From positions 1 through 64,000 of the IMG/VR virus record IMGVR_UViG_3300021475_000010: a stretch of DNA of 64,000 nucleotides; one strand, written 5' to 3'. The notes under the pieces were generated by a model. That model was not told the origin of the DNA. It saw only the letters and a list, made by a program, of their open reading frames with translations, and did no database searches. The position numbers were made by a program, and so were the translations under genes. Shown here piece after piece: positions 1-26,257 of this stretch. This stretch comes from a virus. Within the stretch, counting starts at the first letter, position 1, and each line of letters begins with the position of its first letter.

Positions 1-40
1 GTCTGCGTTCACCGGTGCAATGGGGTCGACCCCCACCGAC

Positions 41-660
41 TACAGTCCTCCGCTCTCGACTACGGTCAACTACACTCGACCGGGGTCGACTACACTCGGC
101 CCTCCTCAACTAGGGTCGACTACACTCGACTACACCCGCCTCCCCTCGACCGTAGTACAGTTAGTTAGCCTAACGAACTGGACTACACTCGACCGAGGTC
201 GACTACACCCGACTAGGGTCATAGAGGGTCGACTACACTCGGCTACACCCAGCTACAGTCACCTACACCCACCTATCCTCGACTACACCCGTCTAGCCTC
301 GACTAGGGTAGGTTAGGGTAGGGTACAGTAGACTAGGGTAGGCTAGGCTCGACTAGGGTAGGGTACAGTAGGGTAGGGTCAAGGAGGGTAGACTAGGGTC
401 GACTACACTAGGGTAGGGTAGCGTACGGTAGAGTACGCCCGTATACACTAGGCTAGGGTCAAGTACGGTAGGGTAGGGTCGACTACACTAGGGTATAGTC
501 AGCTAGGGTAGGGTACGGTCGAGGGCAGTAGAGTACGGTCAACTACGGTAGGGTCCTCTAGAGTGTACCCGAGTACGGTCAACTACGGTAGCGTACGCTA
601 GAGGGCACCCGACTAGGGTCAACTACGGTAGCATGTAGTCGAGTAGGGTCGAGTATCGAA
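41..660. repeat. Array of degenerate 10-bp repeats, part 1
   Basis: The stretch is built from decamers resembling GACTAGGGTC or GACTACACTC, drifting to GGGTACGGTA. From 181 to 660 there are 48 consecutive units in one unbroken 10-bp register, nearly always with TA at positions 4-5 of the unit. From about 58 to 160 the same unit runs in a shifted register, with a break at about 161-180. Ten is not a multiple of three, so the array does not look coding. Its role is unknown: a protein-binding array, a genome-end structure or curved DNA are all possible. Confidence 0.85.
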
Positions 661-773
661 CGTTAGTACGATCGAACGAACGTTCTATCGAACGGTCGAA
701 AAACGGCGTCCGTTAGAACGAACGTTCTAGAGTACGGTCGAGTACGGTCGACTACACGCGGGGATAAACGAAC

Positions 774-795
774 GGCCCCGACCGAAGTCGGGGCC
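774..795 (-). terminator. Terminator hairpin with UUCG loop
   Basis: Read on the minus strand, a perfect 9-bp stem GGCCCCGAC/GTCGGGGCC closes on TTCG, the very stable cUUCGg tetraloop. It is followed by GTTCGTTTATCC. It lies 16 bases past the stop of the 811-1230 gene and should end that transcript. Confidence 0.8.
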
Positions 796-810
796 GCGCG
801 TCGGTACTCG

Positions 811-1230
811 TTACGCCGCGTCGGCTTCCGCGTCGTCGTCGTCGTCCGCGTCGTCGTCCGCGTCGTCCGCGCGGAGCGCTTCGGCCTTAGCCTTAGCGGC
901 GGCAACCGCCGCCTCTAGCTTCGCGATAGCGGCCGCCTCGCGCTCTTCGGCCTTAACCTTAGCGGTCCGGGCCTTAGCAAGCCGCTCTTCGGCGACCTTC
1001 GCGCGGTTCGCTTCCACGTTCGCGAGGTAGTTACGCGGGTCCGACTTCCACGCGTCCGACTTTTGGAAGTCCATCCGGGTCGATCCGCCGAGGGCAACTC
1101 CCTTACGGAACGACGCGAGGTCTATTCCCTTCGGGAGGGTACCGCCGAAAACTTCGGCGATAAGGAAGTCGGCGAACGCTTCCATCGTAGGCGTAGCGTC
1201 GGCGGTCGCGTAGCGGGTTAGGTCTTTCAC
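811..1230 (-). CDS. Hypothetical protein, paralogue of the 25577-26257 product
   Basis: A 139-residue protein of unknown function. GTG start with GGGAG eight bases upstream. Residues about 15-67 form a conserved block beginning TMEAFADFLI and including FRKGVALGGS and RMDFQ, ending in DPRN. The same block, with few changes, occurs in the protein at 25577-26257. The rest is an Ala/Lys/Glu-rich probable coiled coil (about 70-120) and a very acidic Asp/Ala tail. The gene is isolated among 10-bp repeats, with its own promoter-like TATACT at 1297-1302 and a terminator at 774-795, so it is probably transcribed alone. The shared block suggests a dedicated domain, for example DNA- or protein-binding, but I do not recognise it. 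Confidence 0.8.
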   Translation of the reverse strand: MKDLTRYATADATPTMEAFADFLIAEVFGGTLPKGIDLASFRKGVALGGSTRMDFQKSDAWKSDPRNYLANVEANRAKVAEERLAKARTAKVKAEEREAAAIAKLEAAVAAAKAKAEALRADDADDDADDDDDAEADAA

Positions 1231-1356: not shown

Positions 1357-1380
1357 AAGTTAGGTCCCTCAACTACCCTC

Positions 1381-1510
1381 GCCTAGGGTCGGAGGGTCAA
1401 GCCTACGGTCGACTACAGTCGACGGGGGTCGACTACACCCGAGTACGGTCGACTGTAGTCGAGTACGGTTGGGGGTAGTCGACTACACTCGACGGCGCTC
1501 GACTGATTTC
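1381..1510. repeat. 10-bp repeat array, part 2
   Basis: Thirteen decamers of the GACTACAGTC type, such as GACTACACTC and GAGTACGGTC, run without indels. Their register is the same modulo 10 as the 181-660 array. The flanking 1511-1550 stretch shows no gene. Confidence 0.75.
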
Positions 1511-1550
1511 CTACTAGACCGGCGGTTTGCTAGATAGATAGCTCGCGGCG

Positions 1551-1734
1551 ATGTAGTCGACCCTAGTCGAGTAGTCGACCGCAATCGACGACGGTTGAGG
1601 GTAGTCGACTACAGTCGAGACCGGTCGAGCCTAATCGAGAGCAGTCGAGTTTAGTCGAGGCAAATCGAGGTCGGTCGAGTTTAATCAAGCGCTATTGAGT
1701 CTCGTCGAGGCAGGTCGAGTTGTACCTCCGGGGT
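1551..1734. repeat. 10-bp repeat array, part 3 (TCGAG type)
   Basis: About 17 decamers with consensus RRTCGAG plus three variable bases, for example AGTCGAGTTT, AATCGAGAGC and GGTCGAGCCT. Spacing is almost exactly 10 bp. A few more units occur at 1811-1845, followed by a perfect 7-bp hairpin CGACGAT-TGT-ATCGTCG at 1839-1855. The rest of 1735-1890 holds nothing I can recognise. Confidence 0.75.
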
Positions 1735-1894
1735 TCACGTAGCCGGAGCACGTCTAGGCACATCCGCGCCACATCTAGCTGGGCCAGGTTCGAGTTTAGG
1801 CCCTGAGAGGCATGTAGTCGAGCCTAGTCGAGGTAGATCGACGATTGTATCGTCGCGTTATTGAATCGTTACCCTCTGAAGGTCAGAAAACGGG

Positions 1895-1967: not shown

Positions 1968-2297
1968 ATGGCTAGGGCCGGAGGCGATAAGCGAGGTAGC
2001 AACGGCGACCGTAAGAAGCGGCGCGAGTGGTTGGTATCTCCCGAAGCAGGGTTCGGCGGCAACGGTAGCGAGGTCAAGTGCTTCTGGGAGTGTGGACGTG
2101 AACTCAACGTCTGGATCGTGGAAGCTGACCGGATCGTGCCGGGCGGTAGCTACCGACGCGACAACATCGTGCCTGCTTGCCGTCCTTGTAATCTCGCGCG
2201 ATCGGACGATGCCTTCCTAACTGTGCAAGAGATAGCCGAGCGGGTAGCTCGAACTGCAGCCAAGCGGGGCAGCCTAGTGCCTGCCCTTGCAGGGTGA
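1968..2297 (+). CDS. HNH endonuclease-like protein
   Basis: A 109-residue protein with the layout of a small HNH nuclease: a CxxC-like pair (CFWEC), then ADRIVPGGS, then RRDNIVPACRPCN. The DN and CxxCN elements match the second half of the HNH fold. The usual first His (D-H-I) is replaced by Arg (DRI), a variation known in some phage HNH proteins, though activity is uncertain. ATG start with GGGAGCAAGG immediately upstream. It opens the left early operon. HNH proteins often sit beside cos or terminase genes or act as homing-type nucleases, and nothing here decides between these. Confidence 0.8.
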   Translation: MARAGGDKRGSNGDRKKRREWLVSPEAGFGGNGSEVKCFWECGRELNVWIVEADRIVPGGSYRRDNIVPACRPCNLARSDDAFLTVQEIAERVARTAAKRGSLVPALAG

Positions 2298-5708: not shown

Positions 5709-6089
5709 ATGAGCCACTACGACGAACGCGACTATGAGGAAGAGGCGGCCAACGCTGCCTTGATGCAAGAGAACGACGACGACTACTGGCTCGGACCGCC
5801 ATGCCCCGACTGCGTTCACGCGCGTACGTGCGAAGCCTGCAAGGCCGAGGATGCATACTACGCGTGGATGGAAGAACGCGTTGAGCGGCTCGGCCCAGAC
5901 CTCGCGATGGTGCCGGACGAGATGCCGTGCTATGACTGCGGCAGGCACCTCCCCAAGCGCATCTGCCAGACCGACGAATGGGGCATGAGTTTCGTCATGC
6001 GTCGAGTGGTCGCGCTCGGCCCCATTGCAGAACCTCACCGTGACCCGACGCAAACCTACCGGCTCGTATGCCACCACGGAGCTATGTGA
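5709..6089 (+). CDS. Hypothetical protein with zinc-ribbon motifs
   Basis: 126 residues. CPDC with CEAC, and CYDCG with a later C and CHH, give two possible zinc sites. The N-terminus is acidic. Such small zinc proteins are common in actinophage early operons, but no function can be assigned. Coupled to the next gene by ATGA. Confidence 0.75.
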   Translation: MSHYDERDYEEEAANAALMQENDDDYWLGPPCPDCVHARTCEACKAEDAYYAWMEERVERLGPDLAMVPDEMPCYDCGRHLPKRICQTDEWGMSFVMRRVVALGPIAEPHRDPTQTYRLVCHHGAM

Positions 6090-6381: not shown

Positions 6382-6597
6382 ATGAACGAGCACGAGGTCG
6401 GCGACGCTAAGGATGCAGCGTTCTTCGTGGCGAACGAGGTCGTGAACGAGTACCACGCGTTCCCGGTCGTACAGCGTGCAGACATCGGCGGGGCGAACGT
6501 CATGTTCATCCTGATCAACCAGACATGGTACAAGTTCGAGGTCAAAAAGGTCATGGACCCGGAACTCGTTATGAAGCTGGAGGCACTCACCCCATGA
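6382..6597 (+). CDS. Hypothetical protein
   Basis: 71 residues with GGAGG before the ATG. A helical N-terminal half precedes a beta hairpin-like end (VMFILINQTWYKFEV). Function unknown. Confidence 0.75.
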   Translation: MNEHEVGDAKDAAFFVANEVVNEYHAFPVVQRADIGGANVMFILINQTWYKFEVKKVMDPELVMKLEALTP

Positions 6598-6767
6598 GGT
6601 CCACTGCAGAGATCGAACAGGAGATGGAGCAAGTCAGGCAAAAGCGAGCTAAGCTGGTGACTGATCAGCCGCCCGGATGGATGGCTGACTACGCCCCGCT
6701 GCAAGTAAAGGTCAGCGAACTAGCTGCCGAATGGATGGCAGCAAGGCAGGAGGAAGAAGGCAAATGA
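6594..6767 (+). CDS. Hypothetical coiled-coil protein
   Basis: 57 residues, starting MRSTAEIEQE. Glu/Gln/Lys-rich, probably one or two helices. Overlapping ATGA junctions on both sides. Confidence 0.7.
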   Translation: MRSTAEIEQEMEQVRQKRAKLVTDQPPGWMADYAPLQVKVSELAAEWMAARQEEEGK

Positions 6768-7066
6768 GCCACATCATCCAGAACTACACCGACGAGGCGG
6801 AAATCTGGCGCGACGCATGGCGCATCGCTGACCCCGGTGCAGCCAACCCGGTCGCGGTCGCGCGTACGCTGTTCGCGGCGTCGGCGTTCCTGGACCATCA
6901 GATCGGCACGGACGGAGTGCGAAAGCATCCCGCGCTTCGGCTCATCGCGGCGCAGCTGGCCTCGCTGTACAGCGTCAATGCTGACGGCGGTGGTATGGGA
7001 GACGACGACGACTTCATCAGCATCGTCCAGCGCGAGGCGAAGGCACAGGAGGCGGAAGCACAATGA
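6764..7066 (+). CDS. Hypothetical protein
   Basis: 100 residues, mainly helical (VAVARTLFAASAFLDHQ), with an acidic Gly-rich loop (GGGMGDDDD). AGGAGGAAG lies upstream. Function unknown. Confidence 0.75.
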   Translation: MSHIIQNYTDEAEIWRDAWRIADPGAANPVAVARTLFAASAFLDHQIGTDGVRKHPALRLIAAQLASLYSVNADGGGMGDDDDFISIVQREAKAQEAEAQ

Positions 7067-7434
7067 AGACCATCACGGTCGACTGCCCGATCTGCAGCGC
7101 CAAGGTATCACGTGACCTCGATATCATCGAGCAACCGCTGACTCTCAACCAGGCCGACCTGATCGGCGTCCTCATGCGAGGAGTCAGTAACAACTCCAAG
7201 CTGAACTGGTACCAGTTCGGCAGCCGTGACGCCGACCACCCGCTGACTATGGTGATGCGAGCGTTCACTCACGACGGTGGCGGCTTCCTCAGCGAAACCG
7301 ATGACATCCGCGAGGCGTACGTCTGGTGCTCAGGCTTCATGGAGCGCTGGTTCAGCGTCAGCGACATCATCAAGGCCCTCGACAACCTCGACGGCAAGCA
7401 CGGTACGGAAAACCCCATCGCAACGATCGACTAG
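7063..7434 (+). CDS. Hypothetical protein with N-terminal CxxC
   Basis: 123 residues. CPIC near the N-terminus suggests half of a zinc site; a helical body follows. ATGA overlap with the previous gene. Not recognised. Confidence 0.75.
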   Translation: MKTITVDCPICSAKVSRDLDIIEQPLTLNQADLIGVLMRGVSNNSKLNWYQFGSRDADHPLTMVMRAFTHDGGGFLSETDDIREAYVWCSGFMERWFSVSDIIKALDNLDGKHGTENPIATID

Positions 7435-9392: not shown

Positions 9393-10265
9393 CTAGGCAG
9401 CTGCACGCCTGGTCGACTCCGGGTGTGCACGCCTGTAGGCTCGGAGTCCATCGATGGGGATGCGACCGTTATGGCCAAGCTTGCCGCCTTGCTCGACCCA
9501 CCATGCAGCTATCTCCATGTTCTTGGTCGTCGGGCGTGAACGCCTACCTGCAGGCCGTGAGGACTTGGGCCGGGTACGCGTGCGAGAAACCGAATGCAGG
9601 CGCGGTCCGGGTGGGCCCTGCGGCTCTGGGCGAGGCTGAGCCGGCGGCTTGGGCTTCTCAGGCTTGGGCGGCTTGGGCGCTGGCTCGGGCATGAGCACGG
9701 GCTGAGCGTCTTCCTCCAGCTTGAAGCGTGCAAGGTTGCCCTCGGTGATGAAGTCCCTTCGTGCACGAAGACCATCGCGGTACTCCCTGAACGTGCCGCC
9801 GAGTAGGAGCCAGGTTGCAGGACCGTACCCGGACTTGGCCGAAGGGTGAACGTAGCCGTGCCTGATGAGCTGCTTCCGGTGAACCCAGCCTAGGTGCAGC
9901 TCGTACGCGAGGACGGCTGCGACGGGCGCGGTCGCCCAAACGATCCAGGCGTGTTCGTGCACCCAGAGCGCGGTGTCGCTGTGGAAGCTCTGCACGAATG
10001 CGCCGAGGGCTGCGAACGCGATAACGGTGGCTCGTGCAAGCCATCCGCTGAAACCCTTGCGCCGGTGCTTCAGGCCGATTCGTGCAGCGAAGAGCGCCAC
10101 GCCGTCGAACGCTGCAGACATACCGGCTGCGAAGATCGGCGGCACGCCCACCGCCCGAGCGATCGTGTAGAAACCGAGCCAGCTGATTGCGAGGATGGGA
10201 ACGAGGATGCACGCCCACAGGAACTCTCCGGTTAGTGCATCCAGCACTTTCTTAGCTCTGTCCAC
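9393..10265 (-). CDS. Membrane protein (DUF2637-like) with C-terminal Lsr2-like DNA-binding domain
   Basis: 290 residues. GTG at 10265 is chosen for GGAAGG seven bases upstream. The first 130 residues hold about four membrane segments in a pattern like DUF2637 proteins of actinobacteria and their plasmids (ISWLGFYTIARAVGVPP, then AAFDGVALF). Then come a cytosolic helical stretch, a Pro/Lys-rich linker with repeated PKPP, an Arg-rich stretch, and a final 40 residues (IAAWWVEQGG, then NGRIPIDGLRAYRRAHPE) like the Lsr2 C-terminal domain, whose RGRIP-type loop enters the minor groove. This suggests a protein that tethers DNA to the membrane or competes with host Lsr2; that is inference. The two domain assignments rest on pattern likeness only. 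Confidence 0.75.
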   Translation of the reverse strand: MDRAKKVLDALTGEFLWACILVPILAISWLGFYTIARAVGVPPIFAAGMSAAFDGVALFAARIGLKHRRKGFSGWLARATVIAFAALGAFVQSFHSDTALWVHEHAWIVWATAPVAAVLAYELHLGWVHRKQLIRHGYVHPSAKSGYGPATWLLLGGTFREYRDGLRARRDFITEGNLARFKLEEDAQPVLMPEPAPKPPKPEKPKPPAQPRPEPQGPPGPRLHSVSRTRTRPKSSRPAGRRSRPTTKNMEIAAWWVEQGGKLGHNGRIPIDGLRAYRRAHPESTRRAAA

Positions 10266-10372
10266 TTTTCTGCCTTCCGTCTGGACGAGCTTTAAGCGTA
10301 ACGCTCTCACGGCCGGAAGTCCTAACGTCTGGGAGAAAAGCCTGATCGGACCGGCGAGTCGCGATCCCAGCG

Positions 10373-10558
10373 TTACTGCACGCGAGGATCATCGAGGGTA
10401 GTCGACCGTAGTCGAGCCAGGGTAGCGGCGAGACATCGTGCAGCGTCGACCGGGTACTTGTGCCAGCAGACAGACGATGGGCCATAATCGTAGCAGAACA
10501 GGATCGGCTTGCCGCATAGCCTGCAGTTCCAGCCGAGGTCTAGTCCTTCGATGCACAT
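10373..10558 (-). CDS. Hypothetical Cys-rich protein
   Basis: 61 residues, starting MCIEGLDLGW. CRLCG and later Cys (FCYD, VCWHK) suggest a zinc site. GGAGG lies seven bases before the ATG. It overlaps the upstream gene by 19 bases. The following gap (10266-10372) shows only two or three TAGTCGA decamers at 10388-10412, like those at the left end. Confidence 0.65.
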   Translation of the reverse strand: MCIEGLDLGWNCRLCGKPILFCYDYGPSSVCWHKYPVDAARCLAATLARLRSTTLDDPRVQ

Positions 10559-24535: not shown

Positions 24536-25250
24536 CCACATCGGCGACGACATCCTGTCGGACGGCACTCCGGTGCCGGACGTACCGCAGACCTTCCTCG
24601 CGTTCCGTACCTGGAGGCTGAGCGAGAGCAACAGGCTGCTCAGCATCAACGCGCCTAACCTCACGGGCAAGGCCGGAGGCTCCGGCCAGCAAGGCGTCCG
24701 CAAGATCGGATGGATACATCGCCACCTGGCAGACGAAGAGGGCCAGAACGGATGGCCGATCGCGGAACCGCTTATGGCGCACTGCGGCGTCAAGGGCGCG
24801 GCTGCAGAGGCGAACCCCGATCACGGCAAGATTCCGTCCAAGGAATGCTCGTGCGGTATCTACGCGACGACCGAGATCAAGGTCATCAACAGCTACCTCG
24901 GCAACGAGCAGTACATGGGCGTGGCCATCCGGGGTCCGGTGCTCGGCATTGTCGAGATGGGCGGCAAGGTTATCCCCGCAACGCAAGGCTACCGCGCCCG
25001 GTACGCGCGGGTTGCCGGGATCATCGCCATCGGCGACGTGTTCTCGCTCTCCCACTCGCACTTGCTCCAGATCGCGGAGCTATACCAGGTGCCGTTGCTC
25101 GACGACATCTCCAAGGACCCCGAAGACTACCGCCAGGCCATCGGCCAGATGCCTGCGGTCACTGATCCCTCGTCCATCGGCGATGAGCTGGAGGAATGGC
25201 TGAAGGGCGAAGAGGACAAGAAGAAAGATGATGAGGAGGGAGGTGAATGA
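24528..25250 (+). CDS. Hypothetical protein
   Basis: 240 residues, starting MADHIGDDIL. ATG at 24528 follows GATGGAGCTG. A well-folded alpha/beta composition (FLAFRTWRLSESNRLLS, HCGVKGA with CSCGIYA as a possible metal site, MGVAIRGPVLGIVEMGG). The acidic Lys/Asp/Glu tail resembles tails used to contact DNA-replication partners. Not recognised. Confidence 0.72.
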   Translation: MADHIGDDILSDGTPVPDVPQTFLAFRTWRLSESNRLLSINAPNLTGKAGGSGQQGVRKIGWIHRHLADEEGQNGWPIAEPLMAHCGVKGAAAEANPDHGKIPSKECSCGIYATTEIKVINSYLGNEQYMGVAIRGPVLGIVEMGGKVIPATQGYRARYARVAGIIAIGDVFSLSHSHLLQIAELYQVPLLDDISKDPEDYRQAIGQMPAVTDPSSIGDELEEWLKGEEDKKKDDEEGGE

Positions 25251-25510
25251 CCGTGCCAACCACAACTAGGAAGGGCCATCGCCAAGTGGGTGAGGGAGGT
25301 GAGCCGCAGTTCTCGTTCTGGCTGTTCATCGAGGCGCTGCAGGATGCGCGAGGCGGCGAGGGAATGTCGCCCCTGGAGCTGGCCAATGAGATGGGCGCCA
25401 GTCACGAGGCTGTAGCTCGCTGGATGGCCGGGATCGCTGTCCCGAAGGCCGGATACCTCAAGAGAGCATCACAGCTCTTGGGCAAGGCCCCTGAAGATTT
25501 CTACGAATAG
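25247..25510 (+). CDS. XRE-like helix-turn-helix protein
   Basis: 87 residues. Residues 39-80 (MSPLELANEMGASHEAVARW, then GIAVPKAGYLKRASQLLG) match a Cro/CI-type HTH: the recognition-helix region is SHEAVARWMAG. GGAGGGAGGTGA lies before the ATG. A likely phage transcription regulator and one candidate binder of the dispersed motif, though nothing links them directly. It is followed by a promoter-like site. Confidence 0.8.
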   Translation: MTVPTTTRKGHRQVGEGGEPQFSFWLFIEALQDARGGEGMSPLELANEMGASHEAVARWMAGIAVPKAGYLKRASQLLGKAPEDFYE

Positions 25511-25576: not shown

Positions 25577-26257
25577 ATGCCAGCACGAGCCCGTGCCGCC
25601 CAGACCACCACTCGCCGTCGTCAGCGCGACCCCGAGCCCGAGCCTGAGGTCGAGGAGACCAAGGCCGCGTCCAACGGTGAGAAGGACTACACCGCCTACG
25701 CCGACAAGGACATCACGACCACGATGGAGGCGTTCGCCGACTTCCTGATCGACGAGGTGTACGAGGGCGAACTGCCCGAGGACTATGACGAGGAATCGTT
25801 CCGCAAGGGCGTGTCCCTCGGCGGCTCCGTCCGCATGGACTTCCAGCGGTCCACCTACTGGGCCGAGGACCCGCGCAACCGCAAGAACCGCGAGCCCGAG
25901 GAAGATGATGAGGAAGAGGCCCCAGCCCCGCGTCGCAGCGGTCGCGCCTCGCGGCGAGCTGCAGAGGCCGAAGAGGCACCGGCCCCGCGCAGCAGGCGCG
26001 GCAAGGGCAAGCCCGCTCCCGACCCCGAGCCCGAGGATGACGACGAGCCCGAGGACATCGATGACGAGGACGTTGACGACGAGGACGTGGAGCCCGAGCC
26101 CGAGCCCGAGCCCGCCAAGCCCGCGCGTCGGTCACGTCGAGGCGCGGCTGCGCCAAAGGGTAAGGTAGCAGAAACCGAAGCCGAAGAGCCGGCAGCTCCG
26201 CGCCGGTCTCGTCGCGGCGGCAAGTCCGCTGAGGCGAGCGGCGCTGCGCCTTACTAG
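25577..26257 (+). CDS. Hypothetical protein, paralogue of the 811-1230 product
   Basis: 226 residues. Residues about 50-107 (TMEAFADFLIDEV, FRKGVSLGGSVRMDFQ, DPRN) match the isolated left-end protein almost position by position. The tail differs: alternating Arg-rich (RRSRRG) and Asp/Glu/Pro-rich segments, certainly disordered. AGGAGGAAAG lies before the ATG. Own promoter upstream and a strong terminator downstream, so again a one-gene unit, as for the paralogue. Possibly a nucleoid- or ssDNA-associated protein; unproven. Confidence 0.82.
   Translation: MPARARAAQTTTRRRQRDPEPEPEVEETKAASNGEKDYTAYADKDITTTMEAFADFLIDEVYEGELPEDYDEESFRKGVSLGGSVRMDFQRSTYWAEDPRNRKNREPEEDDEEEAPAPRRSGRASRRAAEAEEAPAPRSRRGKGKPAPDPEPEDDDEPEDIDDEDVDDEDVEPEPEPEPAKPARRSRRGAAAPKGKVAETEAEEPAAPRRSRRGGKSAEASGAAPY

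Follow-up and report, generated by a model that had tools for sequence, protein, structure and literature searches.

We have found that a 70,172-bp virus record (G000), from an uncultured actinobacteria-type virus, carries at its left end about sixty degenerate 10-base units in helical register, beside what looks like the cos site of the phage, and that arrays of this kind adjoin cos in two relatives as well. Operator-like copies of the unit occur elsewhere in the genome. From the sequence comparisons described below, it is well supported that the array is under selection on helical phase; such selection over 500 bp of degenerate DNA is rarely so clear, and here it is seen beside cos in three diverged phages. 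With regard to function, the explanation we favor, tentatively and at somewhat less than an even chance, is that the array is a docking site for a cooperative phage DNA-binding protein, with an operator and an end-organizing role. The window referred to throughout is the whole stretch analyzed, the first 64,000 nucleotides of the record.

A first-pass annotation of this DNA, made from the letters alone, had described a strict 10-bp array of 48 units without an indel at positions 181-660, within a region bounded at 41 and 660. Autocorrelation bore this out. Self-identity at a lag of 10 bases was 0.568 for 181-660, as compared with 0.259 (sd 0.024) in dinucleotide-preserving shuffles (z 13.1), and 0.544 for 41-660, as compared with a shuffle mean of 0.254 (sd 0.020; z 14.5). 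Identity at multiples of 10, up to lag 40, was between 0.54 and 0.67. When the whole 64-kb window was scanned in 100-bp windows, lag-10 identity above 0.5 was seen only at 25-659, 1391-1518 and 1546-1736. Units do precede position 181, as had been said, although the first array extends from about 38 to 659, its register can be traced leftward to ~25, and two further arrays (1371-1510 and 1548-1735) lie beyond it. Register tracking showed 181-660 to be in a single phase through all 48 units with no net slip (~47 consecutive in-register windows, versus 5 or fewer in random 480-bp stretches); left of 151 the phase was again single, out to ~25, but offset by 3 relative to 181-660. We accordingly divide array 1 as follows.

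38 to 150, plus strand: array 1a, ~12 units of 10 bp in one register, consensus GACTANNNTC
151 to 180, no strand assigned: interruption of 30 bp, with a GTTAG/CTAAC inverted repeat and a register shift of 3
181 to 659, plus strand: array 1b, 48 units with no net slip of phase and with higher-order similarity at 40 bp

The plus-strand consensus of 181-660 is G-A-(C/G)-T-A-(C/G)-(G/A)-(G/C)-T-(C/A), which amounts to ~9.6 bits per unit. The first-pass annotation had placed all TA and TCGA steps on one face of the helix; TA steps do fall at phase 4 in 40 units, but they fall at phase 9 in 20 units, and there is a weaker sub-period of 5 bp (lag-5 identity 0.45). Two explanations of the periodicity found no support. 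The region does not encode a repetitive protein, since all six frames of 181-660 contain 9-15 stops. Nor is it likely to be intrinsically bent DNA, as had been suggested: the predicted end-to-end ratio was 0.994 versus 0.992 in shuffles, so that predicted curvature does not exceed that of shuffled sequence, and the roll signal has a period of 5, not 10.

The units are only ~57% alike, and yet there are no net slips, which we take to reflect selection on phase. This had also been proposed earlier, together with the view that recent copying was not involved; the second part needs amendment. Units 4 apart (40 bp) agree at 6.7 of 10 positions, as compared with 5.7 of 10 for neighbors, and the array of a related contig (L003, below) contains an exact 59-base repeat, 40 bp apart, so that 40-bp duplications contributed to the growth of the array. 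Copying in multiples of 10 is what would be expected of a functionless array of satellite type, maintained by slippage or unequal exchange. We regard that explanation as very improbable, however, given that units so unlike each other show no net slip over 460-500 bp in three phages, that the freer positions within the unit use restricted alphabets, and that there are operator-like copies elsewhere.

The comparison with other viruses rests on two metagenomic phages: L003 (18 kb), recovered by protein search, and L055 (46.5 kb), recovered by pattern search. The features of the left end that enter into this comparison are listed here.

674 to 685, no strand assigned: GAACGAACGTTC palindrome, with a GAACGTTCGTTC copy at the same place in L003 (near 5735-5752)
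716 to 727, no strand assigned: second GAACGAACGTTC palindrome, between the terminator and array 1
772 to 797, minus strand: terminator-like hairpin behind gene 811-1230
811 to 1230, minus strand: island gene (139 aa), encoding a helical N-terminal domain, an alanine/lysine-rich helix and an acidic tail; TG and CA almost absent
1968 to 2297, plus strand: gene for an HNH endonuclease, the first in the rightward arm, with 72% identity to its L003 counterpart

Flanking proteins of L003 are 64-80% identical to those of G000, and the order in L003 is HNH, short array pieces, island gene, palindromes, an array in one register over 500 bp, cos element, and TerS. L055 is a more distant, collinear relative (capsid 82% and portal 67% identical, many proteins 40-60%), with a cos element, a 460-bp array in one register, further arrays, and an island-protein homologue whose gene is in the opposite orientation relative to cos. 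A single register is maintained for 480-500 bp in G000, for 500 bp in L003 and for 460 bp in L055. The unit itself is TCGACTANNN in G000 and L003 and TTGACATGAC or TAGTTGACCG in L055; a core common to the three, TC(G/A)A(C/G)T, can be aligned in register, and in the main arrays the related cores TCGACTA and TTGAC agree both in register and in how they are oriented to the island gene. It is this retention of register over 460-500 bp in three phages, despite a changed unit sequence, that makes selection on phase well supported. Inverted repeats of GTTAG/CTAAC interrupt the arrays in two phages, at 151-180 of the window and at 9220-9270 of L055, where GTTAGCGAGGCTAAC stem-loops lie within the array.

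We rejected a tandem array of -10 promoters (TAnnnT per 10 bp in G000), for A at the second position, A5 of the unit, is lost in L055 (frequency 0.25) and has a frequency of 0.64 in L003. Also set aside were contigs from the pattern search with (GACTATAATC)x2-3, which appear to be leaderless promoters in a different group of phages and not arrays; in L051, L053, L054 and L056-L061 these are -10 hexamers spaced by 10 bp, mostly preceded by TTGACN and terminating in what may be a leaderless ATG. The palindromes resemble the actinobacterial SOS (LexA) box; they were not noticed in L055. No island match was found among the named phages and plasmids searched by DNA, and the genome contigs yielded neither an island-protein homologue nor a match to the array pattern.

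We next consider the position of the array, which begins directly behind a conserved element at the genome end, away from the terminase side.

1 to 13, no strand assigned: left record end, read as the physical cos end; CGGC is missing between the record's two ends
14 to 37, minus strand: conserved cos-proximal element GGTGGGGGTCGACCCCATTGCACC (GGTGGGGGTCGACCCC), the same in L003 and similar in L055

Contigs L003 and L009 read across the junction CAGAC-CGGC-GAAGC, which the two ends of G000 fit minus exactly CGGC, and the right end of the G000 record lies within 7 bases of the points at which L008 and L010 stop. From these coincidences, as judged from assembly ends, we take the two record ends to be a probable cos site whose 3' overhang is short (CGGC); 4-base cos overhangs are known (PMC3706429). 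Leftward from the right end are TerS (Terminase_7), a TerL-like protein, portal, capsid and tape measure, the best TerL matches being to phages of actinobacteria at no more than 51% identity. The cos element also occurs at a distance of ~40-50 bp from the right end of L003, of L055, and of the phages Juicebox, Nergal, MalagasyRose and Kalimba; in the latter four it is GGTGGGG, and HNH genes are likewise found near the right end. Several other observations concern this neighborhood. On the terminase side of cos (L002 9650-10172 and L009 1-90), TGCA motifs and TGCAATTTTGCA inverted repeats are abundant, whereas the opposite side is TG/CA-poor. L003 has a DNA methyltransferase gene (6544-7233) between array and TerS, where G000 has no room for one.

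The adjacency to cos, at the end distal to TerS and TerL and in three phages, would be accounted for if the array were a packaging or ejection element, that is, an extended cosQ-like or terminase-engaging site, or one that serves the first-exiting genome end. A packaging site had been among the earlier suggestions, and the placement of array 1 beside cos is compatible with it. We nevertheless consider it unlikely, since the GGTGGGG element, but no 10-bp array, is present in Juicebox, Nergal, MalagasyRose and Kalimba, whose TerL is related, which indicates that generic packaging works without one. Further, arrays 2 and 3 and a mini-array upstream of a DUF2637 gene (below) are distant from cos, and the 15 bp that TerS of HK97 binds are located across cos, on its downstream side (PMC11331095). 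The period of 10 that the first-pass annotation had proposed to look for at related actinophage ends was present in L003 and L055 but in none of these four phages, nor was a 10-bp array found in TinyMiny, JacoRen57 or ReT1v-1. The right end of Mycobacterium phage JacoRen57 (L069) is unusually rich in GGAATTCG and CGCG words, with a lag-8 identity of 0.51.

Copies of the unit away from array 1 bear upon a regulatory role.

1357 to 1367, minus strand: box GGACCTAACTT, which flanks array 2 on the gene-proximal side
1371 to 1510, plus strand: array 2, upstream of the island gene; lag-10 identity 0.492, z 5.5
1548 to 1735, minus strand: array 3, in opposite orientation (TAGTCGANNN on the plus strand), upstream of the HNH gene; lag-10 identity 0.50, z 7.0
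10389 to 10415, plus strand: mini-array of 2-3 units, ~80-110 bp upstream of the DUF2637 gene at 9393-10310

In each of arrays 2 and 3, TAGTCGA is oriented towards the array's own gene, the island gene and the HNH gene, respectively, and all 4 copies of box GGACCTAACTT in the three phages are located between array and gene. A 3-unit mini-array (1227-1253) likewise precedes the DUF2637 homologue of L003; the mini-arrays of the two phages are far from the island and mutually inverted, and none was seen in the sequenced part of L055. Two-unit matches with 2 or fewer mismatches number 32 in the window, versus 0.4 expected, and all except the DUF2637 copies are within the island.

These observations suggest to us the following mechanism. 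The contiguous, helically phased sites, with a unit of 10 bp, would bind a sequence-specific protein, which the phage itself probably encodes; its subunits or dimers, one to each turn, would be placed side by side, and the resulting filament or wrapped complex would cover ~0.6 kb at the cos end distal to the terminase. Shorter runs, of 2-17 units, that precede the island gene, the right-arm operon and the DUF2637 gene would be operators for the same protein, which would thereby control promoters near the end and also organize the end, the operator role being coupled to a centromere-like or end-organizing one. A docking array of this sort would explain why the register is constant although changes of base are tolerated, why lineages differ in their unit, and why there are short operator-like copies, and a landing array for a cooperative protein, as first proposed, still appears to be the best reading, the register having been kept while the unit changed. 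We count in its favor that runs of units precede the island gene and the right-arm operon, that no integrase family match was found in the genome, that Prim-Pol and DUF2637 genes are present, as in plasmids, and that there are working precedents in ParR/parC, where DNA with 10-bp repeats is wound on a helix of protein, and in omega/parS (PMC5016525). Against it, no protein was recognized as the binder (a search for Lsr2, suggested earlier, gave no match), the island protein is without a family match, and the DUF2637 mini-array is inverted between G000 and L003 and absent from the sequenced part of L055. What regulation by itself chiefly fails to explain is the position against cos. If a phage protein does coat the end, this system would offer a compact model of how filaments nucleate on phased sites and of the organization of phage ends.

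The island protein has a predicted N-terminal helical domain of ~75 aa, followed by a long helix and an acidic tail. It gave no Pfam, PHROG or significant PDB match, and two structural models were of low confidence (mean pLDDT 67) with no significant fold match; its best viral matches are uncharacterized phage proteins at 28-35% identity, one of them from Arthrobacter phage Wollypog. A paralogue is encoded elsewhere in the genome.

25577 to 26257, plus strand: island-protein paralogue (226 aa), in the recombination module; normal TG/CA content

The paralogue shares the N-terminal domain, and its neighbors are a RecB-like nuclease and a RecA-like protein. An HTH_3 protein is encoded at 25247-25510 and, like the island protein and the paralogue, is a candidate for the array-binding protein. 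Microbacterium phage TinyMiny, the right end of which is without an array, has a homologue of the 226-aa paralogue (gp45) in a similar neighborhood.

The dinucleotides TG and CA are nearly absent from 601-1350 of G000 (1-7 per 200 bp versus about 25-30); the depletion recurs at 4800-5700 of L003 and, more weakly, at 9200-10800 of L055 outside its TG-rich main array. At synonymous sites, the island gene of G000 has 9 TG/CA versus 38.3 ± 4.5 expected from genome codon usage, that of L003 has 7 versus 33.0 ± 4.3, and that of L055 has 27 versus 40.8 ± 4.4 (10 versus 23.4 ± 3.3 in a second gene), while the paralogue has 56 versus 52.9 expected. The island is thus under a second constraint, which extends to the choice of synonymous codons, and the literature searched offered no cause for it. 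Taken together, the phased filament of ~0.6 kb beside cos, the paralogue of a recombination-module protein within the island and the exclusion of TG/CA could belong to a dedicated genome-end system of one actinophage lineage, which would guard, sort or start the entering end and replace Ku-like or other end-handling functions. No Ku match was found, and we think this broader proposal doubtful.

Two other functions have to be weighed against the docking array. In favor of a replication origin with short iterons are the phased direct repeats, which adjoin a small gene and an A-tract, and the replication genes in the same genome arm. But the cumulative GC-skew maximum is near 6-8 kb, away from the array, no initiator site was found, and iterons are usually about 20 bp long and few, so that an origin seems to us quite improbable. 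The array could instead be a true centromere, or partition site, of a prophage living as a plasmid, with a motor that we did not recognize. Its form is near that of parC/parS arrays (PMC5016525), and the lack of an integrase family match and the Prim-Pol and DUF2637 genes would suit such a putative lysogeny. However, the AAA_31 ParA profile (PF13614) found nothing in this genome, whereas it matched 14 of 14 controls, and no plasmid relative was found; we judge a true centromere to be rather unlikely. The StbA/ParM profile (PF06406) matched neither this genome nor any of the control genomes.

That no phage element of this form had been described, as the first-pass annotation stated, is uncontradicted by the literature we searched, in which there was no 10-bp end array, although two plasmid systems are close in form. 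In ParR/parC of the ParMRC plasmids R1 and pB171, contiguous 10-11-bp direct repeats surround a promoter, and one dimer per repeat wraps the DNA (PMC5016525). Array 1 similarly has contiguous ~10-bp direct repeats, 48 plus ~12 units in register; it differs in having ~60 repeats, not ~ten, in its location beside cos, and in that no ParR or ParM was recognized, whereas their genes adjoin parC. In omega/parS of pSM19035, contiguous short direct and inverted repeats extend over several promoters, and the system combines regulator and centromere (PMC5016525). The phage arrays are alike in that short contiguous repeats, in both orientations, are associated with several promoters of one replicon, but the unit is 10 bp with no ParA recognized, as opposed to 7-bp heptads with a delta ParA partner. 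Since ParA was not found and the ParM profile had no control matches, we do not claim membership in either system. The cos regions of actinophages and HK97 share with G000 an element ~40-50 bp from the end, a nearby HNH gene, and TerS and TerL beyond the other end; those of the actinophages examined lack the 10-bp array, and HK97 has a single TerS site on the opposite side of cos. Finally, the stoperators and operators of cluster A mycobacteriophages are many copies of a short, asymmetric repressor site, 13 bp long, nearly invariant and scattered singly. The array resembles them in consisting of many short sites, but its sites are 10 bp long, degenerate and contiguous.
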